Source: Verrucomicrobiota bacterium
GTDB lineage: Bacteria; Verrucomicrobiota; Verrucomicrobiia; Limisphaerales; VHCN01
Direction: 5' to 3'
Assembly: GCA_016871675.1 (NCBI GenBank)
Contig: VHCN01000025.1
Coordinates: 1 to 40,962, forward strand
DNA length: 40,962 nt
Made by a program: the position numbers and the translations under genes. Below are positions 15,783 through 40,641 of this stretch, piece after piece. The notes beneath the pieces were generated by a model. The model searched no databases, was not told the origin of the DNA, and saw only the letters and a list, made by a program, of their open reading frames with translations. The stretch's first letter is position 1; each line of letters begins with the position of its first letter.

Positions 15783-17075
15783 ATGAACATCTTCGAAGAC
15801 CTACAGTGGCGCGGGCTGGTCGCGGATTGCACGGACGCCGCACAGTTGCAAGCGCGGCTCGCAGCCGGACCGATCACGCTCTACTGCGGGTTCGACCCCT
15901 CCGCGGACAGCCTGCACGCGGGCAACCTCGTCCCGCTCATCGCGCTGCGGCGCTTCCAGCTTTGCGGGCATCGTCCCATCGCCGTCGCGGGCGGCGCGAC
16001 GGGCAGCATCGGCGACCCGAGCGGCAAGTCCGCCGAGCGGCAGCTCCTCACCAAGGACGCGCTCGCCGCGAACATTGCGAACGTGAAGCCGCAGCTCGCG
16101 CGGCTGCTTGAGTTCGACGCCGCGAAGACGCCCGCCAACAATCCCGCGCGGCTTGTGGACAACGCGGACTGGACCGCAGGCGTGGGCCACCTCGACTTCC
16201 TGCGCGACATCGGCAAGCACTTTTCCGTAAACCAGATGGTCGCGAAGGAATCCGTCCGCGCGCGGATGGAGGACCGCGAGACGGGCATCAGCTACACCGA
16301 GTTCAGCTACATGCTGCTGCAAGCGTTCGACTACTACGTGCTCTGCCGCGACCTCGGCTGCGAGCTGCAAATCGGCGGCTCCGACCAGTGGGGCAACATC
16401 ACCGCGGGCATCGACCTCATCCGCAAGAAGCTCGGTCGGCACGCGTTTGCGCTCACGCTGCCGCTCCTCACGAACGCCGACGGCACGAAGTTCGGCAAAA
16501 CCGAGGCCGGCGCCGTGTGGCTCGACCCGCGGCGCACGAGCGTCTACCGCTTCTACCAGTTCTGGATTCGCACGGACGACCGCGACGTGGTGCGTTACCT
16601 GAAGTTCTTCACGTTTCTCGGTCACCACGACGTTGATGCGCTCGAGCGGGAACACACGGGCAATCCCGGCGCGCGCGCAGCCCACACAGCCCTGGCGAAG
16701 GCGGTCACGGACCTCGTGCATGGCGAGGACGCGGCTCGCGAGGCGCAGCGCGCGAGCGAGATTCTCTTCGGCGGCGGCCTCGAAGGCATCAGCGAGGCGA
16801 CGTTCGCGGAGATCGTCGGCGAAGTGCCGTCGAAGTCGCTCGACGCCGCGCGCTTCGACGGCGCGGGGGTGCCGCTCATCGAATTGCTCCAGCACGCGGG
16901 ACTGTGCACGTCGAAGGGGCAGGCGCGAAAGGACATCGAAGGCGGCGGCATCTACGTGAACAACGTGCGGCAGCCCGATGCGCACGCGACCGTGACGCGG
17001 AGCAGTTTGAACTTCGGAAAACACGTCCTCCTGCGAAAGGGCAAGCGCAACTATGCCGCGGTGACGGCGGTGTAG
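15783..17075 (+). CDS. tyrS: Tyrosyl-tRNA synthetase
   Basis: TyrRS activates tyrosine with ATP and loads it onto tRNA-Tyr in the cytoplasm. The 430-residue length is standard for the bacterial enzyme. The class I HIGH-type signature is SLHAGN at residues 43-48, within YCGFDPSADSLHAGNLVPL. The KMSKS-type loop is KFGKT at 236-240. The tyrosine pocket segments FSYMLLQAFDYYVL and QIGGSDQWGNITAG are intact. A C-terminal S4-like RNA-binding domain covers about residues 360-430 (LCTSKGQARKDIEGGGIYVN). The ATG at 15783 directly precedes the usual first helix. The 114 bases separating it from the divergent MFS gene show no T-box-like element that I can recognise. The open frame runs far upstream, but that part is antisense to the MFS gene. 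Confidence 0.97.
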   Translation: MNIFEDLQWRGLVADCTDAAQLQARLAAGPITLYCGFDPSADSLHAGNLVPLIALRRFQLCGHRPIAVAGGATGSIGDPSGKSAERQLLTKDALAANIANVKPQLARLLEFDAAKTPANNPARLVDNADWTAGVGHLDFLRDIGKHFSVNQMVAKESVRARMEDRETGISYTEFSYMLLQAFDYYVLCRDLGCELQIGGSDQWGNITAGIDLIRKKLGRHAFALTLPLLTNADGTKFGKTEAGAVWLDPRRTSVYRFYQFWIRTDDRDVVRYLKFFTFLGHHDVDALEREHTGNPGARAAHTALAKAVTDLVHGEDAAREAQRASEILFGGGLEGISEATFAEIVGEVPSKSLDAARFDGAGVPLIELLQHAGLCTSKGQARKDIEGGGIYVNNVRQPDAHATVTRSSLNFGKHVLLRKGKRNYAAVTAV

Positions 17076-17129
17076 CGCAGGCTGTTCGCTCGACTTCGCG
17101 GCCGGGGTGTGCTGAAACTGCCCCACGCG

Positions 17130-17357
17130 ATGGAGCCCGACGAGAAGTTCATCCCGCCGCCGTCCAGGAGCGCGCCGCTGCCGTCGCGCGGGTTTCGCGT
17201 GTTCGTGCTGTTCATCTTCGTGGTCGCATTCATCGTGCCGCTCGTCGTCGTGCTGCTGCTGCTGGCCAAGGGCAAGCCGAAGTGGATCAAGCCCAAGCCC
17301 GCGCCGGCACAGGCCACGAACGCACCGCCCGTGAACCCCGCGCCCGCGCCGCGATGA
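17130..17357 (+). CDS. Small single-pass membrane protein
   Basis: The 75-residue protein has one strong membrane segment (VFVLFIFVVAFIVPLVVVLL, about residues 27-48). It is flanked by a proline-rich N-terminus (KFIPPPSRSAPLPSRG) and a lysine/proline/alanine-rich tail (KGKPKWIKPKPAPAQA). I chose the ATG at 17130; a GTG seven codons upstream is possible. The stop overlaps the start of the following permease in an ATGA arrangement, so the two are probably translated together. No family is recognised. It could be an accessory subunit of the transporter, or simply a small orphan protein. The gene starts 54 bases after tyrS. Confidence 0.7.
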   Translation: MEPDEKFIPPPSRSAPLPSRGFRVFVLFIFVVAFIVPLVVVLLLLAKGKPKWIKPKPAPAQATNAPPVNPAPAPR

Positions 17358-18748
17358 ACCCGCCCGGCCCGACCGATTCGGCGCCCACGCCGCACCTGCA
17401 CCGGCGTTTCGGGATGCTCGAGGCGACGGCGCTGAACATGTCGAACATGATCGGCATCGGGCCGTTCATCACCATCCCGGCGCTGATGTCGGCGGTGAAC
17501 GGCGGCGGGCCGCAGGCGATGCTCGGTTGGTTTGTGGCGCTGCTCATCGCCATCCCCGACGGCATGGTGTGGAGCGAACTGGGCGCGGCGATGCCCGGCT
17601 CCGGCGGCACGTATCACTACCTGCGCGAGGGCTTCGGCCGGGAGAAGCTTGGCCGGTTGATGGCGTTCCTGTTCATCTGGCAGTTCGTGCTGAGCGGGCC
17701 GCTGGAAATCGCGTCGGGCTGCATCGGCTTCGCGCAGTATCTCGGCTTCCTGTATCCGCCGCTGCGGCAGGCCGATCATCAGTGGATGGCGAAGGGCGTC
17801 GCCGCGCTGGTCGCCGCGCTGGTGGTGGCGCTGCTTTACCGGCGCATCGGCACGATCGGCAAGCTGACGGTGACGCTGTGGGCCGGCACGATGCTCACGG
17901 TCGGCGTGGTGGTCGCGGGCGGCGCGATGAACTTTGACCCGAAGCTCGCGTTCGACTTTCCGCCGGGCGCGTTTGATTTCTCGATCGGCTTCGTGTTCGG
18001 CCTCGGCGCGGCGTCGCGCGTGGGGATGTATGACTACCTCGGCTACTACGATGTCTGCTACATCGGCGACGAGGTGAAGGACCCTGGCCGCGTGATCCCG
18101 CGCTCGGTGCTGCTGAGCCTCGTGACGGTTGCGGCGATTTACTTCGCCATCAACCTGTCGCTCATCGGTGTGGTGCCTTGGCGCGAATTCGTGCCGGCCA
18201 AGGATCCGCCCGACCCGGTCGCCTCAATGTTTGTCGAGCGGCTGTGGGGCGCGAAGCCGGCGGCGGTGTTCACGGTGATGGTGCTGTGGACGGCGATCGC
18301 GTCCGTGTTCGCGCTGATGCTCGGTTACTCGCGCATCCCGTATGCGGCGGCGCGCAACGGGGATTTCTTCTCCGCGTTCGGCAGGCTGCATCCGTCGAAG
18401 GATTTCCCGCACGTGTCGCTGCTGCTCATCGGCGCGGTGTCCATCCTGTGCAGCTTTGTGAACTTGATGACGGTGATCGAGGCGCTGCTGGTGATGCGCA
18501 TCCTGGTGCAGTTCGTCGGGCAGGTCGGCGCGGTGATGCTGCTCCGCAGGACGCAGCCGGGCCTCGCGCGACCGTATCGCATCTGGCTGTATCCGCTGCC
18601 GTGCTTCGTCGCGCTGGCGGGCTGGCTGTTCCTCTTCGCGACGTCGGATTGGAAGGTGATCGTGTTCGGCCTTTCGACACTCGTCGCCGGGGTCGTCGCG
18701 TTCTTCTTCTGGTCGAAGGCGAAGAAAACGTGGCCGTTCGCGGCGTAG
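17354..18748 (+). CDS. APC-superfamily amino acid/polyamine transporter
   Basis: The 464-residue protein has about twelve membrane helices. The N-terminal signature (FGMLEATALNMSNMIGIGPF) is the broken first helix that holds the amino group of the substrate in APC carriers. MPGSGGTYHYLREGFG follows in the loop after helix 2. The helix 6 region (FVFGLGAASRVGMYDYLGYY) and the loop YIGDEVKDPGRVIPRS also match the LAT/APA branch. It should import, exchange or export an amino acid or amine across the inner membrane. It overlaps the small membrane protein gene by four bases and ends seven bases before the convergent jag gene, leaving no room for a conventional terminator. It is not closely similar to the permease at the left edge. 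Confidence 0.9.
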   Translation: MNPPGPTDSAPTPHLHRRFGMLEATALNMSNMIGIGPFITIPALMSAVNGGGPQAMLGWFVALLIAIPDGMVWSELGAAMPGSGGTYHYLREGFGREKLGRLMAFLFIWQFVLSGPLEIASGCIGFAQYLGFLYPPLRQADHQWMAKGVAALVAALVVALLYRRIGTIGKLTVTLWAGTMLTVGVVVAGGAMNFDPKLAFDFPPGAFDFSIGFVFGLGAASRVGMYDYLGYYDVCYIGDEVKDPGRVIPRSVLLSLVTVAAIYFAINLSLIGVVPWREFVPAKDPPDPVASMFVERLWGAKPAAVFTVMVLWTAIASVFALMLGYSRIPYAAARNGDFFSAFGRLHPSKDFPHVSLLLIGAVSILCSFVNLMTVIEALLVMRILVQFVGQVGAVMLLRRTQPGLARPYRIWLYPLPCFVALAGWLFLFATSDWKVIVFGLSTLVAGVVAFFFWSKAKKTWPFAA

Positions 18749-31412: not shown

Positions 31413-33680
31413 TCAGGCCGCCTGCGGCAACCCGCGCTTCGTGCCGCGCCAAATCCAGGCGCACACGAGCAGCGCGAGCCCGCTTAGCGCAGCGCCCGCC
31501 GCGAGTCGCGGCTCGCGATACTCCAGCACCACGCGCTTTGCCCCCGCGGGCAGCTCGATGGCTTGGAACGCGTGGTTCGCCCGCCACACGCGCGTGGCTT
31601 GGCCATCCACGGTGGCGGTCCAGCCGGGATACCACGTTTGCGCGACGACGAGCATCGCCGCGCCCGCGGTCTCCACCGTTACTTCCACGCGCCGCTGCGT
31701 GAAGCGGGCATCGAGAATCTTGGCACGCGAAGTGTCCGTCGCCTTCACGACGGCGGCGGCTTCCGCCGGGAGCAGAACTTCAACGTCGGGCTGAAACTGC
31801 TTTGAGCCCAGCGCGCGCGATGTGGCCTCGGCATCGGCGAACACCGGCCGCTGGCCGATGCTCACCCACAGACGCGGGCTGGCACGCGGCACGAACTTCA
31901 TCACTTCGCCCGGCGCCGTCACATGCGACACGCCGAGGAAGTCCATCAACCGCGGGAACTCGTTCGTCGAGCCGTAGAGCAACCGGTTCACCTCCGCCGA
32001 CTCGCGGGACACGAGCGTGGTCGCGCCGTTCACCTTTGGCAGGTGGTCGAGGTGGTTCAGGTTGCCCCAAAGCGCGACGCGCTGGGCTAGGAAGTCGTTC
32101 TTAAAGTCCGGCAACATGCGCGTGTGCAGGTCGAGCTCCGCGCGCGGCGAGAGCATCGCGCGCCCCTCGCCCACGCGGGGTGCCGGGTCGAGCTTGTGAT
32201 ACGCCTGCGCCAGCCCCGGCCCGAAGACGTCCGCCGGGATGGTCGGATTCTGTCGCGGGCTGTGCGTAACGAGGTCGAGCCAGAACAGAGCGAGCACGCC
32301 AAGCTGGAGCGCCAACTTCATGGGCTCTCGCGACTGGCCGGCGACCAGCCGCGCCACTGCCAGCACGAGCGCGAACAAGACAACCCGGACCACGGCATTC
32401 ACCGCCGTCGATTGAACGTCATCCGTCGGCAGTGCCGAGTGCTTCGCCCACAACAACACGACTCCGACCACCGCAGCCGCAAGCACTGCGAAAGTGCCCG
32501 CACGTTGAACCTTGAACTTCGAACCTGGACCTTCGCCACAAGCGAACGCCGCCATCAGCGGCAGCGTGAACGCCGTCAGCAAGATGAACTTCACCGGGAA
32601 GCGCATGAACTCGACGGGCGCCAGCATCGCAATTACCGGATAAAGAAACCCGTTCGTCCCCATCGCCATCAGCACCGCGAGCGCCGTCGCCGCCGCGAGC
32701 ACCCACACGCGCCGGTCGCGCATGCGCCACACGGCCAGCGCCGCGAGTGCGAGCACGCCCAGCCCCGCGTAGTAGCTCGGCAGGAACGATTGTCCCGCCT
32801 GCACGTAGATGCCCTGCGGCGTCTTGAAGCAGTGGAACAGCGGCACGATGAAGTTCGCCCAGCCCCACGCCGGCAGCGACCAGAAGCCCGCGCCAAACTC
32901 TCCGCCGCCAAAGCCCCTCGCCCGTTGTGAGACGGACAGCAGTTGGAAAAATGGCATCAAGATCACCGCGCACAAACCGGCCACCAACGCGACGGTCGCG
33001 AGAAACCGGCCGGCGACCTGCCGCTTATTGACCCGTGACCCGTCATCCGTAGTTCCAGCAAGCGCCGCGCACAGCCCCCAAGTCATGAGAATGAGTTCCG
33101 GCGCGCCCGACATCATCTGCATCGCGCCGGCGAGCGCGGCAAGGACGACGTTCCGGCCGCCTTCCGCGCCCGCGCGTTGCACGAGCAGCACCACCCACGG
33201 CATCCAGCCGAACGTGACGAGGTAGTTCGGATAGATGTGGCTTGTCAGCGACGTGCCGCCGAACACGAACGCCACGCCCGCGACGCCCGCGGCGAAGGAC
33301 GAACCCGTCCAGCGATGCGCCAGCGCGTGCATGCCAAGGCCGCCGAGCATCCAGTGCGCGAGGCAGAACACGCCCAGCCCCCACGGCAGCGGCAGCAGCA
33401 GGTAGATCAGCGAGCCCGGATACAGCGCGAGCGTGTTCCATTGCGCGAGGAACGGCGCGCCGCAGTTCACGTAGGGATTCCACAGTGGCAGCTCGCCATT
33501 CCAGAAGCACTCGCGCGCGTAGAACACGAACGGATAGCCGAGGAACCCGTAGTCGCGGTAGAAAAACGCGCCCGTCCCGAGCACCACGCCGGGAAACGTG
33601 GCGAACAACAGCACGCCGAGAAGGAGCGCGAAGCGGCGCGGATTAAACCAGGCGGAACCGTCCATTGCGTCATTGGCCAT
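31413..33680 (-). CDS. YfhO-like multi-spanning membrane protein, copy A
   Basis: The 755-residue protein has about twelve hydrophobic helices and a soluble, periplasmic C-terminal part. Near the N-terminus it carries [20 protein letters not shown] and [20 protein letters not shown]. These match YfhO-like and other GT-C type membrane glycosyltransferases, where an acidic residue in the first loop (here the aspartate in YRD) is catalytic and a lipid-linked sugar is the donor. The C-terminal segment ([40 protein letters not shown]) is the beta domain common to YfhO proteins. Its start overlaps the end of copy B by 11 bases. It is probably an enzyme of cell-surface glycosylation; donor and acceptor are unknown. 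Confidence 0.82.
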
Positions 33681-36033
33681 GGGTCAATCGCTTCCCCCGC
33701 CTCCACATCACGCCGCACACGGCAAGCGCGGCGAGCGAGATGAGGCAGCCGATGCGGAACTTCCGGTCTTCATACGCGAGGCGCACGCGGTGCGTGCCCG
33801 CGGGAACTTCAAGCGCCTGAAACGCGTGGTTCGCGCGCAGCAGCGGCACGGGCTTGTCGTCCACGTATGCCTTCCACGGATGATAAAACGTCTGCGCGAT
33901 GGCGACGAGGGCGGGGACGTCCGCCGTGACTTCGCATTCCACACGATTTGCCGACCAAGACTGCTCGCGAAGGCTCGCCAATGACGGGCCGGTCACCGCA
34001 ACCTTCGACCGGTATTCGGCCGGCAGGTGCACCTGGCCCCGTGGGTCGAACAAACCAGAGAATAGCAACTGCAATGTAGCCGAACTTTCCCTCTTCTCCC
34101 CGAACAGGGGCCGTTGACCGGCAGTGATGAATGGGAGACTTGATGGCCGACTCACCCCGGCAAGATTCGTCATCCCTGTGAGCACGTTTCCCACCCCAAG
34201 GAAGTTCAACAGCGCTTCGCTTGGCGCTGCATTCGAGGCGTAAATCCAGCTTTGCAACTCGTCCTGCTCGCGAATGCGCAGCGTGGAGGAGCCGTTCACC
34301 TTCGGCACACCGTCGAGCGCGTTGAGGTTCGACCAGAACGCGCGCCGCTTGAGGGCGAATTCCTGCGCCCAGTTCGTGGCACCGATGTGGAGCAGCGTCC
34401 GCTCGGCATCAGGCGAGATCATCAGCCGGCCATCGCCAGGCCTGAGCGCGATGCCTGTGGCTTCACGGCCGAGATTCGGCGCGAAGAGCTTCGCATCGAG
34501 CGTCGGATTCTGGTTCTTCAGATGCGTCAATCCGTCCGCCGCAATCAAGGCAAGTGTTGCAAGCCCTGCGAGCAAGCTCGTGCGCTGGCGCGGTCCGGCG
34601 CAGGCGTTGAACAGCATCGCCAGCGAACAACCGAAGAACAGCATCCGACCAACCGTGTTCGCCACGGTTTCGTCGAAGCGGTCGTAGGTCAGCGGGTGGC
34701 CGCGCATCCACCACAGCACGAGCAGCGCGATCGCCGGCACCAGCGTGGCGAGGACGAGCAGCGGCTGCCATTCAGTCGCCGATGGCCGATGGCCCATGGC
34801 CCATGGACCTGATGCCGTCGCGTCGCTCGCGCCGTCACGGGACAGGCACCACTTCACGCCGAATGCCGCGAGCAGCGACACGACGAACGCGACGAGGATC
34901 AGGAACTTCACCAGGTAGCGCGCGATGCCCACGACCGGGATGACCTTGTGCAGGAGCGGGAAGAGCGGCCCGTTGTTGCCCATCGCCAGGAGCACGGCGA
35001 CCACGCCAAGCGCGGCGAGCAGCACCACGCGGCGGTCGCGCACGCGCCACACGGCCAGCGCCGCGAGCGCGAGCGCGGCGGCGCCTGCGTAACACGAGGT
35101 GAGGAACTCCTGTCCCTGCATGAAATAGAACTCCTGCGGCGACATCGCGCAGCGGAACATCGGCACGAGCAGGTTCGCCCAGCCCCACGCGGGCAGCGCC
35201 CACTTGCCGACGGCCTGCGACGGGTCGCGCTGCGAATGCGTGAGCAGGTCGAAGAATGGCAGCAGTTGCGCGGCACAAAGGGCCGAGACGAGTGCGAGGA
35301 TGAGCGCAAATCGCAATCCGTAATGCGTCACCGGAACCCGGCTTCCGTCTTCCGTCTTTCGTTCCACGGATTCCACCGACAGAAGGCCGCCCAGCACGAT
35401 CCACGTGAACACCACAATCTCCGGCGTGCCCGCAAGCATCTGCATCGAGGCGGCGAGCGCGGCGAGGACGACTGTGCGGCCGCCTTCCTTCCACGCGCGC
35501 TGGACAAGCAGCACAACCCACGGCATCCAGCCGAGGGCGACGGTGTAGTTCGGCCAGATGAGGCACGCGAGCGTGATGCCGTTGAAGACGAACACCGTTC
35601 CCGCGACAGCCGCGCCGAAGCGCGAATGGGTCCAACGCTCCGCCAGCTTGAACATGCCGATGCCGCCGAGCCACAAGTGCAGGAGGCAGAACACACCGAG
35701 CGACCACGGCAGCGGAAGCAGCACGTAGAACAGCGTGCCCGGATAGAGCACCATCGTGCCCCATTGCGCGAGGAAGGGCGCGCCGCAGTTGCTCAGCGGG
35801 TTCCACAGCGGCAATTCGCCCGACCAAATGGACTCGCGATGGTAATGCACAAATGGATACGCGAGCACGCCGTAGTCCGAGCGGAAAAACGACTCCGCGC
35901 CGAGCCACACCGTCGGGAATGCGGCGAACAGCGCCGCGAGCAGAAACAGCGCGAACCTCGGCAGCGTGAAACACGCGTCGAGTGTGGCAACACGGCCGCC
36001 CGCGCCCGCCGGAATGGTTGCATCACGGCTCAT
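33670..36033 (-). CDS. YfhO-like multi-spanning membrane protein, copy B
   Basis: The 787-residue protein is a paralogue of copy A, clearly similar over its whole length: [40 protein letters not shown], the repeated [13 protein letters not shown]-type segment ([19 protein letters not shown]), and the C-terminal AQTFYHPWKAYVDDKPVPLL. It therefore arose from a tandem duplication. Multiple membrane helices are followed by a periplasmic beta domain. The aspartate in FRSDYG corresponds to the YRDYG of copy A. It overlaps the upstream truncated copy by 11 bases and the downstream copy A by 11 bases, so the three are translated in series. Function is inferred as for copy A: a GT-C-like transfer from a lipid-linked sugar. 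Confidence 0.82.
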   Translation of the reverse strand: MSRDATIPAGAGGRVATLDACFTLPRFALFLLAALFAAFPTVWLGAESFFRSDYGVLAYPFVHYHRESIWSGELPLWNPLSNCGAPFLAQWGTMVLYPGTLFYVLLPLPWSLGVFCLLHLWLGGIGMFKLAERWTHSRFGAAVAGTVFVFNGITLACLIWPNYTVALGWMPWVVLLVQRAWKEGGRTVVLAALAASMQMLAGTPEIVVFTWIVLGGLLSVESVERKTEDGSRVPVTHYGLRFALILALVSALCAAQLLPFFDLLTHSQRDPSQAVGKWALPAWGWANLLVPMFRCAMSPQEFYFMQGQEFLTSCYAGAAALALAALAVWRVRDRRVVLLAALGVVAVLLAMGNNGPLFPLLHKVIPVVGIARYLVKFLILVAFVVSLLAAFGVKWCLSRDGASDATASGPWAMGHRPSATEWQPLLVLATLVPAIALLVLWWMRGHPLTYDRFDETVANTVGRMLFFGCSLAMLFNACAGPRQRTSLLAGLATLALIAADGLTHLKNQNPTLDAKLFAPNLGREATGIALRPGDGRLMISPDAERTLLHIGATNWAQEFALKRRAFWSNLNALDGVPKVNGSSTLRIREQDELQSWIYASNAAPSEALLNFLGVGNVLTGMTNLAGVSRPSSLPFITAGQRPLFGEKRESSATLQLLFSGLFDPRGQVHLPAEYRSKVAVTGPSLASLREQSWSANRVECEVTADVPALVAIAQTFYHPWKAYVDDKPVPLLRANHAFQALEVPAGTHRVRLAYEDRKFRIGCLISLAALAVCGVMWRRGKRLTHGQ

Positions 36034-36379
36034 TCGGAGCGCCTCGGCGAAACCGCGAGACTGCGAGTCCAGCCACGCAGATCAACAGCCCGGTCATCGA
36101 CAGCAGCACGCCAAGCCGGAATGCCCTGTCCTCATACACCACGCGCACGCGGCTCGAGCCGGCGGGCACTTCGAGCGCTTGATACGCGCGGTTCGCGCGC
36201 CAAAGGGTCGTGGGCTGGTCGTTCACGCAGGCTCGCCACGGATGATACCAAGTCTGCGCGAGCACCACGAGCGCGGGGTGGAGCACGAACAGGATCAACG
36301 CGACGAGCGCGAGGAAGCGGCCGGGAGTGAAATGCGCGCCCACCTCGCTGATCGGGCGGGCGGGCACGGAGGCGGTCAT
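36023..36379 (-). pseudogene. Internally deleted third YfhO-like copy (118 codons, open)
   Basis: The 118-codon frame joins what looks like the N-terminal start of a YfhO copy (AHFTPGRFLALVALILF, compare FTLPRFALFLLAALFA in copy B) to the C-terminal end of such a protein (VLAQTWYHPWRACVNDQP, then RANRAYQALEVPAG and YEDRAFRLG). The junction falls near residues 32-37, about 36268-36286. About 650 residues, including all but the first helix and the beta domain tail, are missing. The frame is still open, has an ATG at 36379 and keeps the 11-base overlap with the following copy, so it may be expressed. It is listed as a pseudogene because the catalytic part is gone. A functional small protein is the alternative. 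Confidence 0.7.
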
Positions 36380-36448
36380 GCGCGATGAGTTTTCCAAAAA
36401 CTGCAAGCCACCCAAAGGCAAAAGTCCGGCGACCCGCGGGGCAGGTCG

Positions 36449-39400
36449 TCAACGCGCGCCCGCGCGGGGCGGGGCCGCGCCGGTTTCGAGAAACGCGATC
36501 AGGTCGAGGATTTCGTCGCGCGACAGGGTGTCGAGGAGATTGCCCGGCATCGGCGAGACGGCGGAGACGCGGCTCGATTTGACGGCGGCCTTCGGCACGC
36601 GCGCGACCTGCTCGGGCGCGAGTGACGTGCGGATGTGGAGCACGCCGGCTTCCTCGCGCACGAACTGGCCGGCCACGGTCGAGCCGTCCTGCAGCGTGTA
36701 TTCCGTGCCGCGGTGCTTCTCGTCCACCACGCGCGAAGGATCGAGCATGGATTCGAGCATCGCGCGGCGGTCGAAGCGACGCCCGACATCGGTGAGATCC
36801 GGCCCGAGGCCGGCGCCTTCGCCGCCGAAGCGGTGGCACGCGGTGCACTGCGCCGCGGCGAACGCCTCGCGGCCGAGCTTGATGGATCGGCCCTTGAGCG
36901 GCGCGGAGACATCGGCGAGCAAGTCGTCCATCTGCCATTGCCTGACGAATATGCGCGGTTTCGGCGGCGGCGCCGCGACGGGCTTGGGCGGCGGCGGGTC
37001 GAGCAGCGAGGCGAGCGCGGCGCGCTCGGCACTGGTGAGCGTGGCCATCGCGTCCTTCCGTGTGTCGGCAATGTATGCCGGCAAAGTGCGGCCGCCGGTG
37101 AATCCCGCGGCCTTGTCGAACCACTTGAAGCAGGTGCGGCGCTCGTCGAGCGTCCACCCGCGCGCGACGTTGCGGAGCAGGAACATGAACTGCAACTGCT
37201 CCTCCTGCGACTTCGCGCGCGCGACGAGCGGCAGCGTCTTGCGGACGACGTTTTGTGATTCGAGGTAGACCAGCAACTCGCACAACTCGGCGTTGAGACG
37301 CGGGCTCGAAGTCGGATAGATGGAATCGAATCTCGCCGCCATGCGCGCACACGTCGCAGCATCGGGCCGGCCCAAGCGGACGAACGCGAGCTGATAAGTT
37401 CGGCACAGGTCAACCCGCTGGCCGTCGGAGAGCTTTGCCCACGGCAGTTGGTCAAGCGCATCGAGCAAGGCAGGCTGCGAGTTCGTGCCGCCGCTGCGGG
37501 CAAGCGCGAGGAGCGCCGTGAGCGCGGCTGGTGTGCGGCGTTCGTTCAATGCGCGCTGCTGCCAGCTTGCGGCGTCCTGATGCTCGATGGCGACTCGCGC
37601 CGCGTGGCGAATCCACGGGTCACCGCTTCCCAGTTGGGGCCAGGCAACGTCCACGGCTGCGGCGGATTGCTTCCCGTGATGCGCCTCGAGTTGGCGACGG
37701 AGTTCCCTCGCCTCGGCGGCTTCGCGCTCGAGTTTCAAATCCGCAGCGCGCGGCGCGGCCGGTTCCGAGGGCTTCACGCCAGCGACGCGATACAAGCCCG
37801 CCTGCGTCCCGCGTCCGCCGGTCGTGAACCACATCGCGCCGTCGGGGCCGAACACCATGTCGGTCACGTTCAGCGGCCTGCCGGTGAGAAACGCCTCGGT
37901 CGCGCCCGAATAGCTCGCGCCTTTCGGCTTCAGATGCACGGCGAGGATGCGGCCGTAAGCCCAGTCGCAGATGAAGAGCGCGTCGCGATACTTCGCGGGG
38001 AAGTTCGCCGAGTTGCAGAACGCCACGCCGGTGGGTGATGCCACGCCGATGTCCGCCACGGGCGCGAGCGCGTCCGGCCAGTCGGTGGGCCACATGCTCG
38101 TGCCGCGGCGCCAGCCGTATTCGCCGCCGGAGACGACGTGATGCACGCGGTTGGGCCGATACCACGGCGCGCCGACGTCCCATTCCATGTCGGCGTCGAA
38201 CGTGAACATCTCGCCGTGACGGTTGAACGCGAGGTCGTAGGGATTGCGGAAGCCACCGGCGACGATTTCCCAGCGCGTGCCTTCGGCGTCTGTGCGCATC
38301 ACGTGGCCGCACGGTGCTTTCGCGTCGCTGTCGAAGAGGCGGTTGTCCCACGGGCACGGCAGCAGCCGGTCCTCGGCGAAGTTCTTGTAAGGCGATGTCG
38401 GCGCGAGGTCCGCGGGCAGCCGCACGTTGTTGCCGTGGACGAAGTAGATCATGCCGTCCGGTCCAAGCGCCAGGCCGTTGCGCCCGTGGCCGACGCCGCC
38501 CCCGGTGGACTTGAGCAGCTTGACCTCGTCGAACGTGTCGTCGCCGCGCGTCGAGCGGAGGCGGTAGAGCGCCTTCGAGTTGTTGGCGTTCACGTAGAGC
38601 GCGCCGTGCGCGTAAAGCAGGCCGCGGCATTCGAGGAGGTTCTCGTTGATGACCTCGACCTTCGCGACGCCGCCGACCGGCGCGAGCGTGAAGCGCAGCA
38701 GGCCGGACTTTTCGCGCGCGACCGTGAGCCGGCCCTGCGGGTCGAACGCGAGGCTGACCCACGAGCCCTCGTCCTCCTGCGCCGAGCGGACGAGCTCGAC
38801 TGCGAAGCCCGGCGGCGCGGTGATGTTCGCGACGGGCGTGGCCTGCTTGGTGCCGAGGCTGCCGCGCCACGCGTTGTAGGCGTCGAACGAGCGCGTCGGG
38901 TCGAACGGGTCGCCCCACGGCGGCGGGCCGGCGGGGCCGAGCACTTGCACACGCGCCCAGTCCACCGCGACGAATGCGCCCGTGACGGGGTTCGTCGCGG
39001 CCGTCGTCGAGGCAAGCCACGAGCCGTCGGACAGAATGTGCGCGTTCACGGCGGTCACGAGCTTGAAAAGAAGCGCGGGCGAGTTCGTGGGATTGGAGGC
39101 GCGGACCTCGATGGCGTTTGCGCCCGGACGGAGCAGCGACGAAACATCTGTGGTCGAGGCACGGAGGAAGCCGTGTGAAACCGCGGCGGGCTTGCCGTTG
39201 ATGAACACGGCGGCTTCTCCGGAGCAAGCCACGGATAATCCGGCCGCGCCGGGCGCAGCGGCGAGGTTGAAGCGCTTGACAAAGAACACCGCGGCGCCGG
39301 GCGCTGGAACCGTTGCCGCGCGAATCCACTGGGGCGCAGCGACCGCCGAGGAGGCCGCGGCAAAACAGACGAGGGCGCAGAGGAGCCGGCGCGGCCCGTG

Positions 39401-39469
39401 GATGCGAGCGAGAGGACTTGAACCTCCAACCCTTGCGGGACCAGATCCTAAGTCTGGCGCGTCTGCCAT
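36449..39469 (-). CDS. Secreted beta-propeller protein with C-terminal cytochrome c domain (PVC-type CxxCH)
   Basis: The protein has about 1,000 residues. A signal-like segment (RRLLCALVCFAAASSAVAAP) is followed by a jelly-roll-like accessory domain with VFINGKPAAVSHGF. Next is a glucose/sorbosone dehydrogenase-like beta-propeller (ALGPDGMIYFVHG, GGFRNPYDLAFNRHGEMF, DMVFGPDGAMWFTTGGRG), a helical repeat region, and a C-terminal cytochrome c domain with CTACH (36833-36847) and a later Met ligand candidate. This architecture is common in Planctomycetota and Verrucomicrobiota and is linked to carbohydrate oxidation. The start is a problem: no ATG, GTG or TTG lies in frame between the tRNA-Leu 3' end and the signal peptide. 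I used the nearest ATG (39469), inside the tRNA; the true start may be a rare codon near 39403. Confidence 0.8.
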   Translation of the reverse strand: MADAPDLGSGPARVGGSSPLARIHGPRRLLCALVCFAAASSAVAAPQWIRAATVPAPGAAVFFVKRFNLAAAPGAAGLSVACSGEAAVFINGKPAAVSHGFLRASTTDVSSLLRPGANAIEVRASNPTNSPALLFKLVTAVNAHILSDGSWLASTTAATNPVTGAFVAVDWARVQVLGPAGPPPWGDPFDPTRSFDAYNAWRGSLGTKQATPVANITAPPGFAVELVRSAQEDEGSWVSLAFDPQGRLTVAREKSGLLRFTLAPVGGVAKVEVINENLLECRGLLYAHGALYVNANNSKALYRLRSTRGDDTFDEVKLLKSTGGGVGHGRNGLALGPDGMIYFVHGNNVRLPADLAPTSPYKNFAEDRLLPCPWDNRLFDSDAKAPCGHVMRTDAEGTRWEIVAGGFRNPYDLAFNRHGEMFTFDADMEWDVGAPWYRPNRVHHVVSGGEYGWRRGTSMWPTDWPDALAPVADIGVASPTGVAFCNSANFPAKYRDALFICDWAYGRILAVHLKPKGASYSGATEAFLTGRPLNVTDMVFGPDGAMWFTTGGRGTQAGLYRVAGVKPSEPAAPRAADLKLEREAAEARELRRQLEAHHGKQSAAAVDVAWPQLGSGDPWIRHAARVAIEHQDAASWQQRALNERRTPAALTALLALARSGGTNSQPALLDALDQLPWAKLSDGQRVDLCRTYQLAFVRLGRPDAATCARMAARFDSIYPTSSPRLNAELCELLVYLESQNVVRKTLPLVARAKSQEEQLQFMFLLRNVARGWTLDERRTCFKWFDKAAGFTGGRTLPAYIADTRKDAMATLTSAERAALASLLDPPPPKPVAAPPPKPRIFVRQWQMDDLLADVSAPLKGRSIKLGREAFAAAQCTACHRFGGEGAGLGPDLTDVGRRFDRRAMLESMLDPSRVVDEKHRGTEYTLQDGSTVAGQFVREEAGVLHIRTSLAPEQVARVPKAAVKSSRVSAVSPMPGNLLDTLSRDEILDLIAFLETGAAPPRAGAR

Positions 39470-39483
39470 TCCGCCACGCTCGC
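39403..39483 (-). tRNA. tRNA-Leu(UAG)
   Basis: The minus strand folds into a complete class II tRNA. The acceptor stem GCGAGCG pairs with CGCTCGC. The anticodon arm is CCAGA-CTTAGGA-TCTGG, with anticodon TAG reading CUA and other CUN leucine codons. The long variable arm includes CCCGCAAGGG, and the T-arm is GGAGG-TTCAAGT-CCTCT. The D-arm has the GGAATGGCAGACGC pattern of leucine tRNAs. The discriminator base is A at 39403; CCA is not encoded. It lies head to tail with the large cytochrome gene, whose open frame runs through it. Confidence 0.95.
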
Positions 39484-39849
39484 TGGAGTTGAGGGGCCGC
39501 ATTGTGTTCCGCCGGACGCTGCTGGCTCGGAACGCTAGCAGCGGGCGCGCGGCGGGCGCAAGCCCGTTGCCTCATGGAAAAGGTCGGGGGAGGATTCTGA
39601 GCCGTGAGGCATGAAGGACCCGCTCACGTTCGGGGTCGCGGGACACTACACGCTAGTGGACATCCTCATCCGTCCCGCGCCGACCACGGCAAACAACACG
39701 ACGTTCATTCCGGGGGCGAACATCCCCTCGGGCTGGCCGCTCATTCCGTCCGGCTTGGCCAACGGCTCGGTGGCTGCGCCCACCACGAGATGCCACGCTG
39801 ACAGGTCTTCGCAACGCCGCGCCGACGTGGTAGGAAGAGGCCGTTCGCC
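39484..39849. other. Intergenic region without a convincing gene
   Basis: This 366-base stretch separates the tRNA-Leu gene from the PIG-L gene. Both strands have open frames, but neither gives a recognisable product; the plus-strand frame starting at 39611 (MKDPLTFGVAGHYTLVD) runs into the PIG-L gene in another frame. It should hold the tRNA promoter on the minus strand and the PIG-L promoter on the plus strand, but I see no good -35/-10 pair. A GGAAGAGG sequence just before the PIG-L ATG could be a ribosome binding site. Confidence 0.5.
39517..39543. repeat. Hairpin with 7-bp stem upstream of tRNA-Leu
   Basis: The arms cgctgct and agcagcg pair perfectly across a 13-base loop. No T-run follows on either strand, so it is not a typical terminator. 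It lies 34 bases upstream of the tRNA 5' end. Confidence 0.4.
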
Positions 39850-40641
39850 ATGCCAACTGCCATCGCCATCGCCGCGCATCCGGACGACATCGAGTTCCAA
39901 GTCGCCGGCACGCTCGTCTTGCTCCAGCAGGCCGGGTGGGAAACGCACTATCTCAACCTCTCCACCGGCAACTGCGGCAGCGCGACGATGAGCGCCGCCC
40001 GGACGCGTCGCGTGCGCCTCGCCGAGGGCGAGGCCGCCGCGCGACTGCTCGGCGCGCACTTCCACCCGCCGATGTGCGATGACCTCGAGATTCTTTACGA
40101 CCTTGCCACGCTGCGCCGGCTTGCATCGGTCCTCCGCGCCGTGAAGCCGTCGGTCGTGCTTACGCATTCGCCTCGCGATTACATGGAGGATCACATGAAC
40201 ACCTGCCGCCTCGCGGTCACCGCCGCGTTCTCGCGCGGGATGCCGAATTTCAAGGTCACGCCACATCGCGCGCCGTCCGACGCCGACGTGACGCTCTATC
40301 ACTTCATGCCGCACGGGTTGTGCGACGGGTTGCGCGAGCCCGTGGTGCCCCACGCGTTTGTGAACACGACTCCGGTCCACACGACAAAACTCGCCGCGCT
40401 CGCCGCGCACAAATCGCAGCAAGGCTGGCTCGACGTCAGCCAGGGGATGAACTCCTACCTCCAGACGATGGAGGACAGCTCGCGTGAACTCGGCCGGATG
40501 TCGCGGAAATTCAAGCTCGCCGAAGGGCTGCGCCGGCATCTGCACCTCGGTTTCAGCGGCTCGCCCGTGGACCCGCTGCGCGACGCTCTCGGGAAAAACT
40601 ACCTTCTGAACCGGCGCGCGACGGCGAGGCACGAGGCTTGA
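39850..40641 (+). CDS. PIG-L family zinc-dependent deacetylase
   Basis: The 263-residue protein has the PIG-L/LmbE fold. The zinc motif is AHPDD at residues 9-13 (AIAAHPDDIEFQVAGTL), with H10, D12 and D13, and the second zinc site is in the segment LTHSPRDYMEDHMNTCRL, with H115 the probable third ligand. These enzymes remove N-acetyl groups from N-acetylglucosamine-containing glycans or lipids, or act on mycothiol and bacillithiol precursors. The length is normal. Further conserved-looking features are LYHFMPHG and the C-terminal LGKNYLLNRRA. The ATG at 39850 is preceded by a GGAAGAGG sequence about nine bases upstream. The substrate is unknown; neighbouring surface-glycan genes are compatible with a sugar substrate. 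Confidence 0.9.
   Translation: MPTAIAIAAHPDDIEFQVAGTLVLLQQAGWETHYLNLSTGNCGSATMSAARTRRVRLAEGEAAARLLGAHFHPPMCDDLEILYDLATLRRLASVLRAVKPSVVLTHSPRDYMEDHMNTCRLAVTAAFSRGMPNFKVTPHRAPSDADVTLYHFMPHGLCDGLREPVVPHAFVNTTPVHTTKLAALAAHKSQQGWLDVSQGMNSYLQTMEDSSRELGRMSRKFKLAEGLRRHLHLGFSGSPVDPLRDALGKNYLLNRRATARHEA

Follow-up and report, generated by a model that had tools for sequence, protein, structure and literature searches.

In the stretch of DNA that we analysed (hereafter the window, 40,962 nucleotides long), the tRNA-Leu(UAG) gene and the gene of a PVC-type haem-binding CxxCH cytochrome protein are placed head to tail on the reverse strand with a spacing of zero. The junction between them is real and unusual, while the protein and the tRNA are each ordinary; what is unusual at this locus is the combination of the zero spacing with a missing canonical start codon. 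Our reading, which we put forward tentatively from the comparison of sequences, is that the tRNA has replaced the leader of the cytochrome gene together with the first base of its start codon, and that the cytochrome, if expressed, would most likely start at AUC. The features of the locus are compiled in Table 1.

Table 1. Features of the tRNA-Leu(UAG)/cytochrome junction, in window positions; on the reverse strand, genes are read from the higher to the lower number.
Feature	Position	Strand	Basis and remarks
tRNA-Leu(UAG) gene, 81 nt, no encoded CCA	39403..39483	-	ARAGORN; anticodon TAG (L116 is the window copy); Rfam RF00005, 57.7 bits
Candidate start codon ATC	39401..39403	-	Direct reading; 26 codons before the conserved Trp, within the homologue range
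In-tRNA ATG, alternative start with a 22-residue N-terminal extension	39467..39469	-	In-frame codon listing
Upstream ATG, 33-residue extension	39500..39502	-	In frame, with a weak GGCGGA motif 5 nt upstream
PVC-type haem-binding CxxCH protein with signal peptide, 984 residues from ATC 39403	36449..39403	-	TIGR02604/TIGR02603, DUF7133, Cytochrom_C, CTACH
Signal-peptide n-region (RR), hydrophobic core and cleavage region: HGPRRLLCALVCFAAASSAVAAPQW	39326..39400	-	Direct translation; starts directly after ATC

The tRNA-Leu(UAG) gene is genuine. It forms a complete cloverleaf with the UAG anticodon, and its acceptor stem (GCGAGCG/CGCTCGC) is paired at all seven positions, with the discriminator A at 39403. 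Acceptor pair 4:69 is A-U in the window tRNA, and both of its bases differ from those at the 37 other loci compared, in which the alternatives are also complementary; paired changes of this kind are characteristic of a working stem. No other UAG copy was found in the window's genome, a 3.6-Mb draft of 149 contigs with an estimated completeness of 97%, in which Leu tRNAs with the anticodons CAA, GAG, CAG, and UAA are present elsewhere. The 3' CCA is not encoded, the tRNA being followed by TCCACGG, whereas nearly all of the other 37 loci encode it. We rejected the missing CCA as proof of the junction because 8 of the 49 other tRNAs of the same genome, including three of its four other Leu tRNAs, also lack it. 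At another tRNA-Leu without CCA (L144), the downstream frame has no Pfam match. Separately, at least seven tRNA genes, several of them low-scoring and some without CCA, are clustered at 1066-2925 on a 6.5-kb contig of this genome (G000:C106, L192).

The cytochrome frame stays open for 1017 codons, from the ATG at 39502 through the tRNA and on to the stop at 36449. A sequence-only reading of this DNA had drawn attention to this frame, which is indeed free of stops, but trivially so by chance. Since two of the three frames of tRNA-Leu(UAG) contain no stop and a frame runs through the tRNA at nearly every tRNA-Leu(UAG) locus of the relatives, the frame that the tRNA and the cytochrome gene share is uninformative. 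The tRNA itself encodes no protein, and the frame across it is incidental. The same reading had taken the tRNA-encoded peptide for a likely artefact, and we agree: the ATG at 39469 recurs in almost every tRNA-Leu(UAG) gene of the order, and since it belongs to what is conserved in the tRNA, it did not arise as an adaptation of the cytochrome gene.

Between 39620 and 39240, the start-like and stop codons in the cytochrome frame are TGA (39574), CTG (39541), ATG (39502), ATG (39469), ATC (39403), ATT (39325), and GTG (39289); another ATC, at 39595, is in frame but ahead of the TGA. As the sequence-only reading had stated, the full codon listing of this interval contains no in-frame ATG, GTG, or TTG from the tRNA 3' end to the signal peptide, and direct reading finds none of the three in any frame within the first 37 nt past the tRNA. 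Its broader statement, that conventional starts are lacking outside the tRNA, holds between the tRNA and the signal peptide but overlooks the in-frame ATG at 39502, 19 nt before the tRNA begins. The triplet that it proposed as a rare start codon, the ATC at 39403, is present and is the sole in-frame initiator-like triplet at the expected start place; beyond being close to the tRNA, it overlaps it, since the A of the triplet is the discriminator, the last base of tRNA-Leu(UAG).

The protein encoded downstream of the junction exceeds the cut-off of TIGR02603 (86.8 bits against 68.15; E 1e-24) and matches the N-terminal domain TIGR02604 below its curated cut-off (94.2 bits against 122.2; E 1e-26), in addition to its Pfam matches to DUF7133 and Cytochrom_C. 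Its C-terminal haem-binding domain contains the CxxCH motif as CTACH, the 984 codons from the ATC are uninterrupted, and the 11-residue hydropathy maximum of 2.78 falls on LLCALVCFAAA, in the signal peptide. The best protein matches, from three genomes of a single genus (G137, G136, and G007), are 50-51% identical over the full length. In domain architecture (with the TIGR02604 match below cut-off), haem motif, and signal peptide, the window protein is like the other PVC-type haem-binding CxxCH proteins (TIGR02604/TIGR02603), and only the 5' end of its gene is abnormal: with no ATG, GTG, or TTG between the tRNA and the h-region, it lacks the canonical start before the signal peptide that homologues usually have, although such a start does not strictly define the family.

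The homologues indicate where this start should be. They share a Trp just past the signal peptide and begin with ATG (or GTG) about 20-45 codons before it. The ATC at 39403 is 26 codons from this Trp, while the ATGs at 39469 and 39502 are at 48 and 59 codons, respectively. The nearest homologues begin with MIPPRHR and MTPSRHW and the window protein with IHGPRRL, so that the ATG of the homologues and the ATC of the window appear alignable without gaps, over only about six residues, which is suggestive but not proof. Because the arginines and the hydrophobic core follow the tRNA directly, little beyond the leader and the start codon can be missing. The sequence-only reading had left three options, namely an ATC start, a start inside the tRNA, or a replaced 5' end, and had suggested the comparison of homologous genes; this comparison supports the last of the three. 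None of the homologues examined, which come from outside the window's genus and family and are at the nearest about 50% identical, has a tRNA-Leu upstream. In the three genomes of the genus with the best matches (f8/g8; G007, locus L002; G136, locus L203; G137, locus L202), a divergent tRNA-Glu(TTC) is found just upstream of the cytochrome homologue instead, and for these two reasons we consider the junction lineage-specific. Another cytochrome homologue (G029:C88, L016) also lacks an ATG, GTG, or TTG within 60 codons of the conserved Trp. Several public MAG records with Verrucomicrobia-like cytochrome genes (L040, L046, L052, and L058) are titled Klebsiella pneumoniae or Akkermansia muciniphila, names that look doubtful.

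Several other protein genes of the window's genome start shortly after a tRNA on the same strand. The gene of a sulfatase begins 14 nt behind tRNA-Gln, that of MlaE 23 nt behind a tRNA-Met, that of EF-Tu 40 nt behind tRNA-Thr(GGT), that of an acetyltransferase-like protein 42 nt behind tRNA-Leu(CAG), and that of a short-chain dehydrogenase 52 nt behind tRNA-Pro(CGG); an amidohydrolase frame runs from +17 behind tRNA-Thr(TGT). The cytochrome gene is therefore the extreme of an ordinary arrangement. By eye, no Shine-Dalgarno motif is evident at any of these six genes. Some Verrucomicrobia have been reported to be SD-scarce (PMC10783764), and in line with this, starts without such a motif seem to be normal in the window's genome.

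We found no sign of a mobile element. We rejected an island integrated at the tRNA 3' end because the window contains no second copy of that end (att) and integrase genes are found on other contigs only; a search of the virus collection gave no match. In two other genomes (G068 and G070; L120 and L119), a permease 67% identical to the amino-acid permease at 16904-18748 of the window ends beside the 3' end of tRNA-Leu(UAG). In the window, this permease and the tRNA have the same relative orientation and are 20.6 kb apart. A 20-kb mobile insertion between the two was also rejected, since the intervening DNA has core genes (yidC, khpB/jag-like). Synteny around the tRNA is uninformative past one neighbour. 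Upstream, a supposed pseudogene fragment at 39611-39991 was discarded, as it has no Pfam match and only chance-level matches. On the other side of the cytochrome gene, the 132 codons of 36023-36421 (reverse strand) have a weak Pfam match to the C-terminal part of YfhO-type membrane proteins; they read like the C-terminus of the adjoining YfhO gene (33670-36033, reverse strand) and may be a partial tandem duplicate of it.

According to the reading that we favour, a chromosomal rearrangement or the erosion of a short spacer would have put tRNA-Leu(UAG) directly upstream of the cytochrome gene, where it would have taken the place of the gene's own leader and of the first base of the start codon. 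The coding frame proper would then begin at the ATC at 39403, sharing its A with the discriminator. AUC would be usable only on RNA left uncut at the tRNA 3' end, because cutting after the discriminator removes the A, and initiation there would be inefficient because of the third-position mismatch; tRNA processing and cytochrome translation would thus be in competition. Among annotated prokaryotic genes, few start with AUC (PMC9845219), and IF3 acts against third-position mismatches at start codons (PMC10158994). Counting against an AUC start are its weakness as an initiator, its place directly behind a stable tRNA fold, and its destruction by normal tRNA 3' maturation. A stricter form of this proposal, in which the shared nucleotide makes tRNA 3' maturation and mRNA translation mutually exclusive for each transcript, we consider quite doubtful.

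The main rival to an AUC start is a silenced gene: a recent rearrangement would have removed the promoter, the leader, and the start, leaving a young pseudogene, dead or nearly dead in expression, that is covered by other cytochrome-like genes. We judge this unlikely, but it has several points in its favour. The canonical start is missing at the expected place, the protein query matches 14 places in the window's genome, several of which are paralogues, and no promoter-like site was found in 39250-39860, although this is a weak test. Against it, the frame, the signal peptide, and the haem motif are intact, and the cytochrome branch is not accelerated (a terminal branch of 0.62, compared with 0.54-0.77 for other lone lineages in a 22-row tree), which gives no sign of long relaxation but would also fit very recent silencing. 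Since a recent loss would look alike, the intact frame limits only the age of silencing.

A somewhat less probable alternative is that translation begins at one of the two ATGs, at 39502 or inside the tRNA at 39469, on transcripts that RNase P has left unprocessed, with an extension of 22-33 residues before the signal peptide and an N-terminus containing PARVGGSSPLAR. Both ATGs are in frame and followed by no stop, and the upstream one has a weak motif ahead of it (Table 1). However, the in-tRNA ATG, as a part of the conserved tRNA, has not been selected for the cytochrome, both ATGs are farther from the Trp than the starts of most homologues, ribosomes would have to traverse the tRNA fold, and translation would compete with the maturation of the only tRNA-Leu(UAG) found. 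Far less probable than either of these is an assembly artefact, in which the tRNA was wrongly joined to the cytochrome gene or sequence between them is missing. The genome is fragmented, and within the tRNA, a core of 72 nt (39408-39479) matches tRNAs from other families of the order exactly, which makes it a possible misjoin site. However, bases 4 and 69 flank this core and form an A-U pair in none of the 37 other loci; as the unique pair spans the shared core and a misjoin would be expected to break it, both ends of the tRNA come from one genome. The sequence-only reading had named an assembly error as something that would overturn it; the same coordinated pair makes such an error inside the tRNA unlikely. 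The junction itself (39403/39402) is outside the core, and a canonical start past the tRNA would not be produced by any single indel. A single-base error hiding a start was likewise rejected, given that the first 37 nt hold no such codon in any frame.

The locus resembles known systems in part. The tRNA cluster upstream of tufB in E. coli is an example of a bacterial tRNA-mRNA co-transcription unit. As in these units, the protein gene here immediately follows a tRNA of the same strand and probably shares its transcript; such units, including those of EF-Tu, the sulfatase, and MlaE in the window's genome, keep a spacer and an ATG, whereas here the spacing is zero and the candidate start overlaps the tRNA by one base. 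In animal mitochondrial genomes, tRNAs punctuate the transcripts, tRNA genes overlap coding sequences, and starts such as AUC or AUU are used. The likeness extends to tRNAs that abut or overlap protein genes and to AUC/AUU starts, but initiation works differently in mitochondria and their genomes are compact throughout, whereas this is a bacterial genome of 3.6 Mb. The AUU start of E. coli infC, a case of near-cognate AUH initiation in bacteria that appears in titles among the references of PMC9845219, is like the candidate AUC a third-position mismatch start with low expression; infC uses AUU for autocontrol, whereas the AUC of the window seems to have arisen as a side effect of the junction, and nothing points to a regulatory role. 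As a separate observation, the infC frame of the window's genome (G000:C24, L230) has no in-frame ATG ahead of the conserved domain, and its candidate starts are TTG or ATC.

If the cytochrome gene is not expressed, the locus would show cleanly how a rearrangement deprives a gene of its start, and would be a reminder that false starts within the tRNA are to be expected from gene callers. If it is expressed, it would be a natural example from bacteria of a single nucleotide for which tRNA maturation and downstream translation compete, and its AUC start would belong to a lineage that seemingly initiates without Shine-Dalgarno motifs; and if the two processes were mutually exclusive, the output of the cytochrome would be governed by the processing of the tRNA together with leaky near-cognate initiation.
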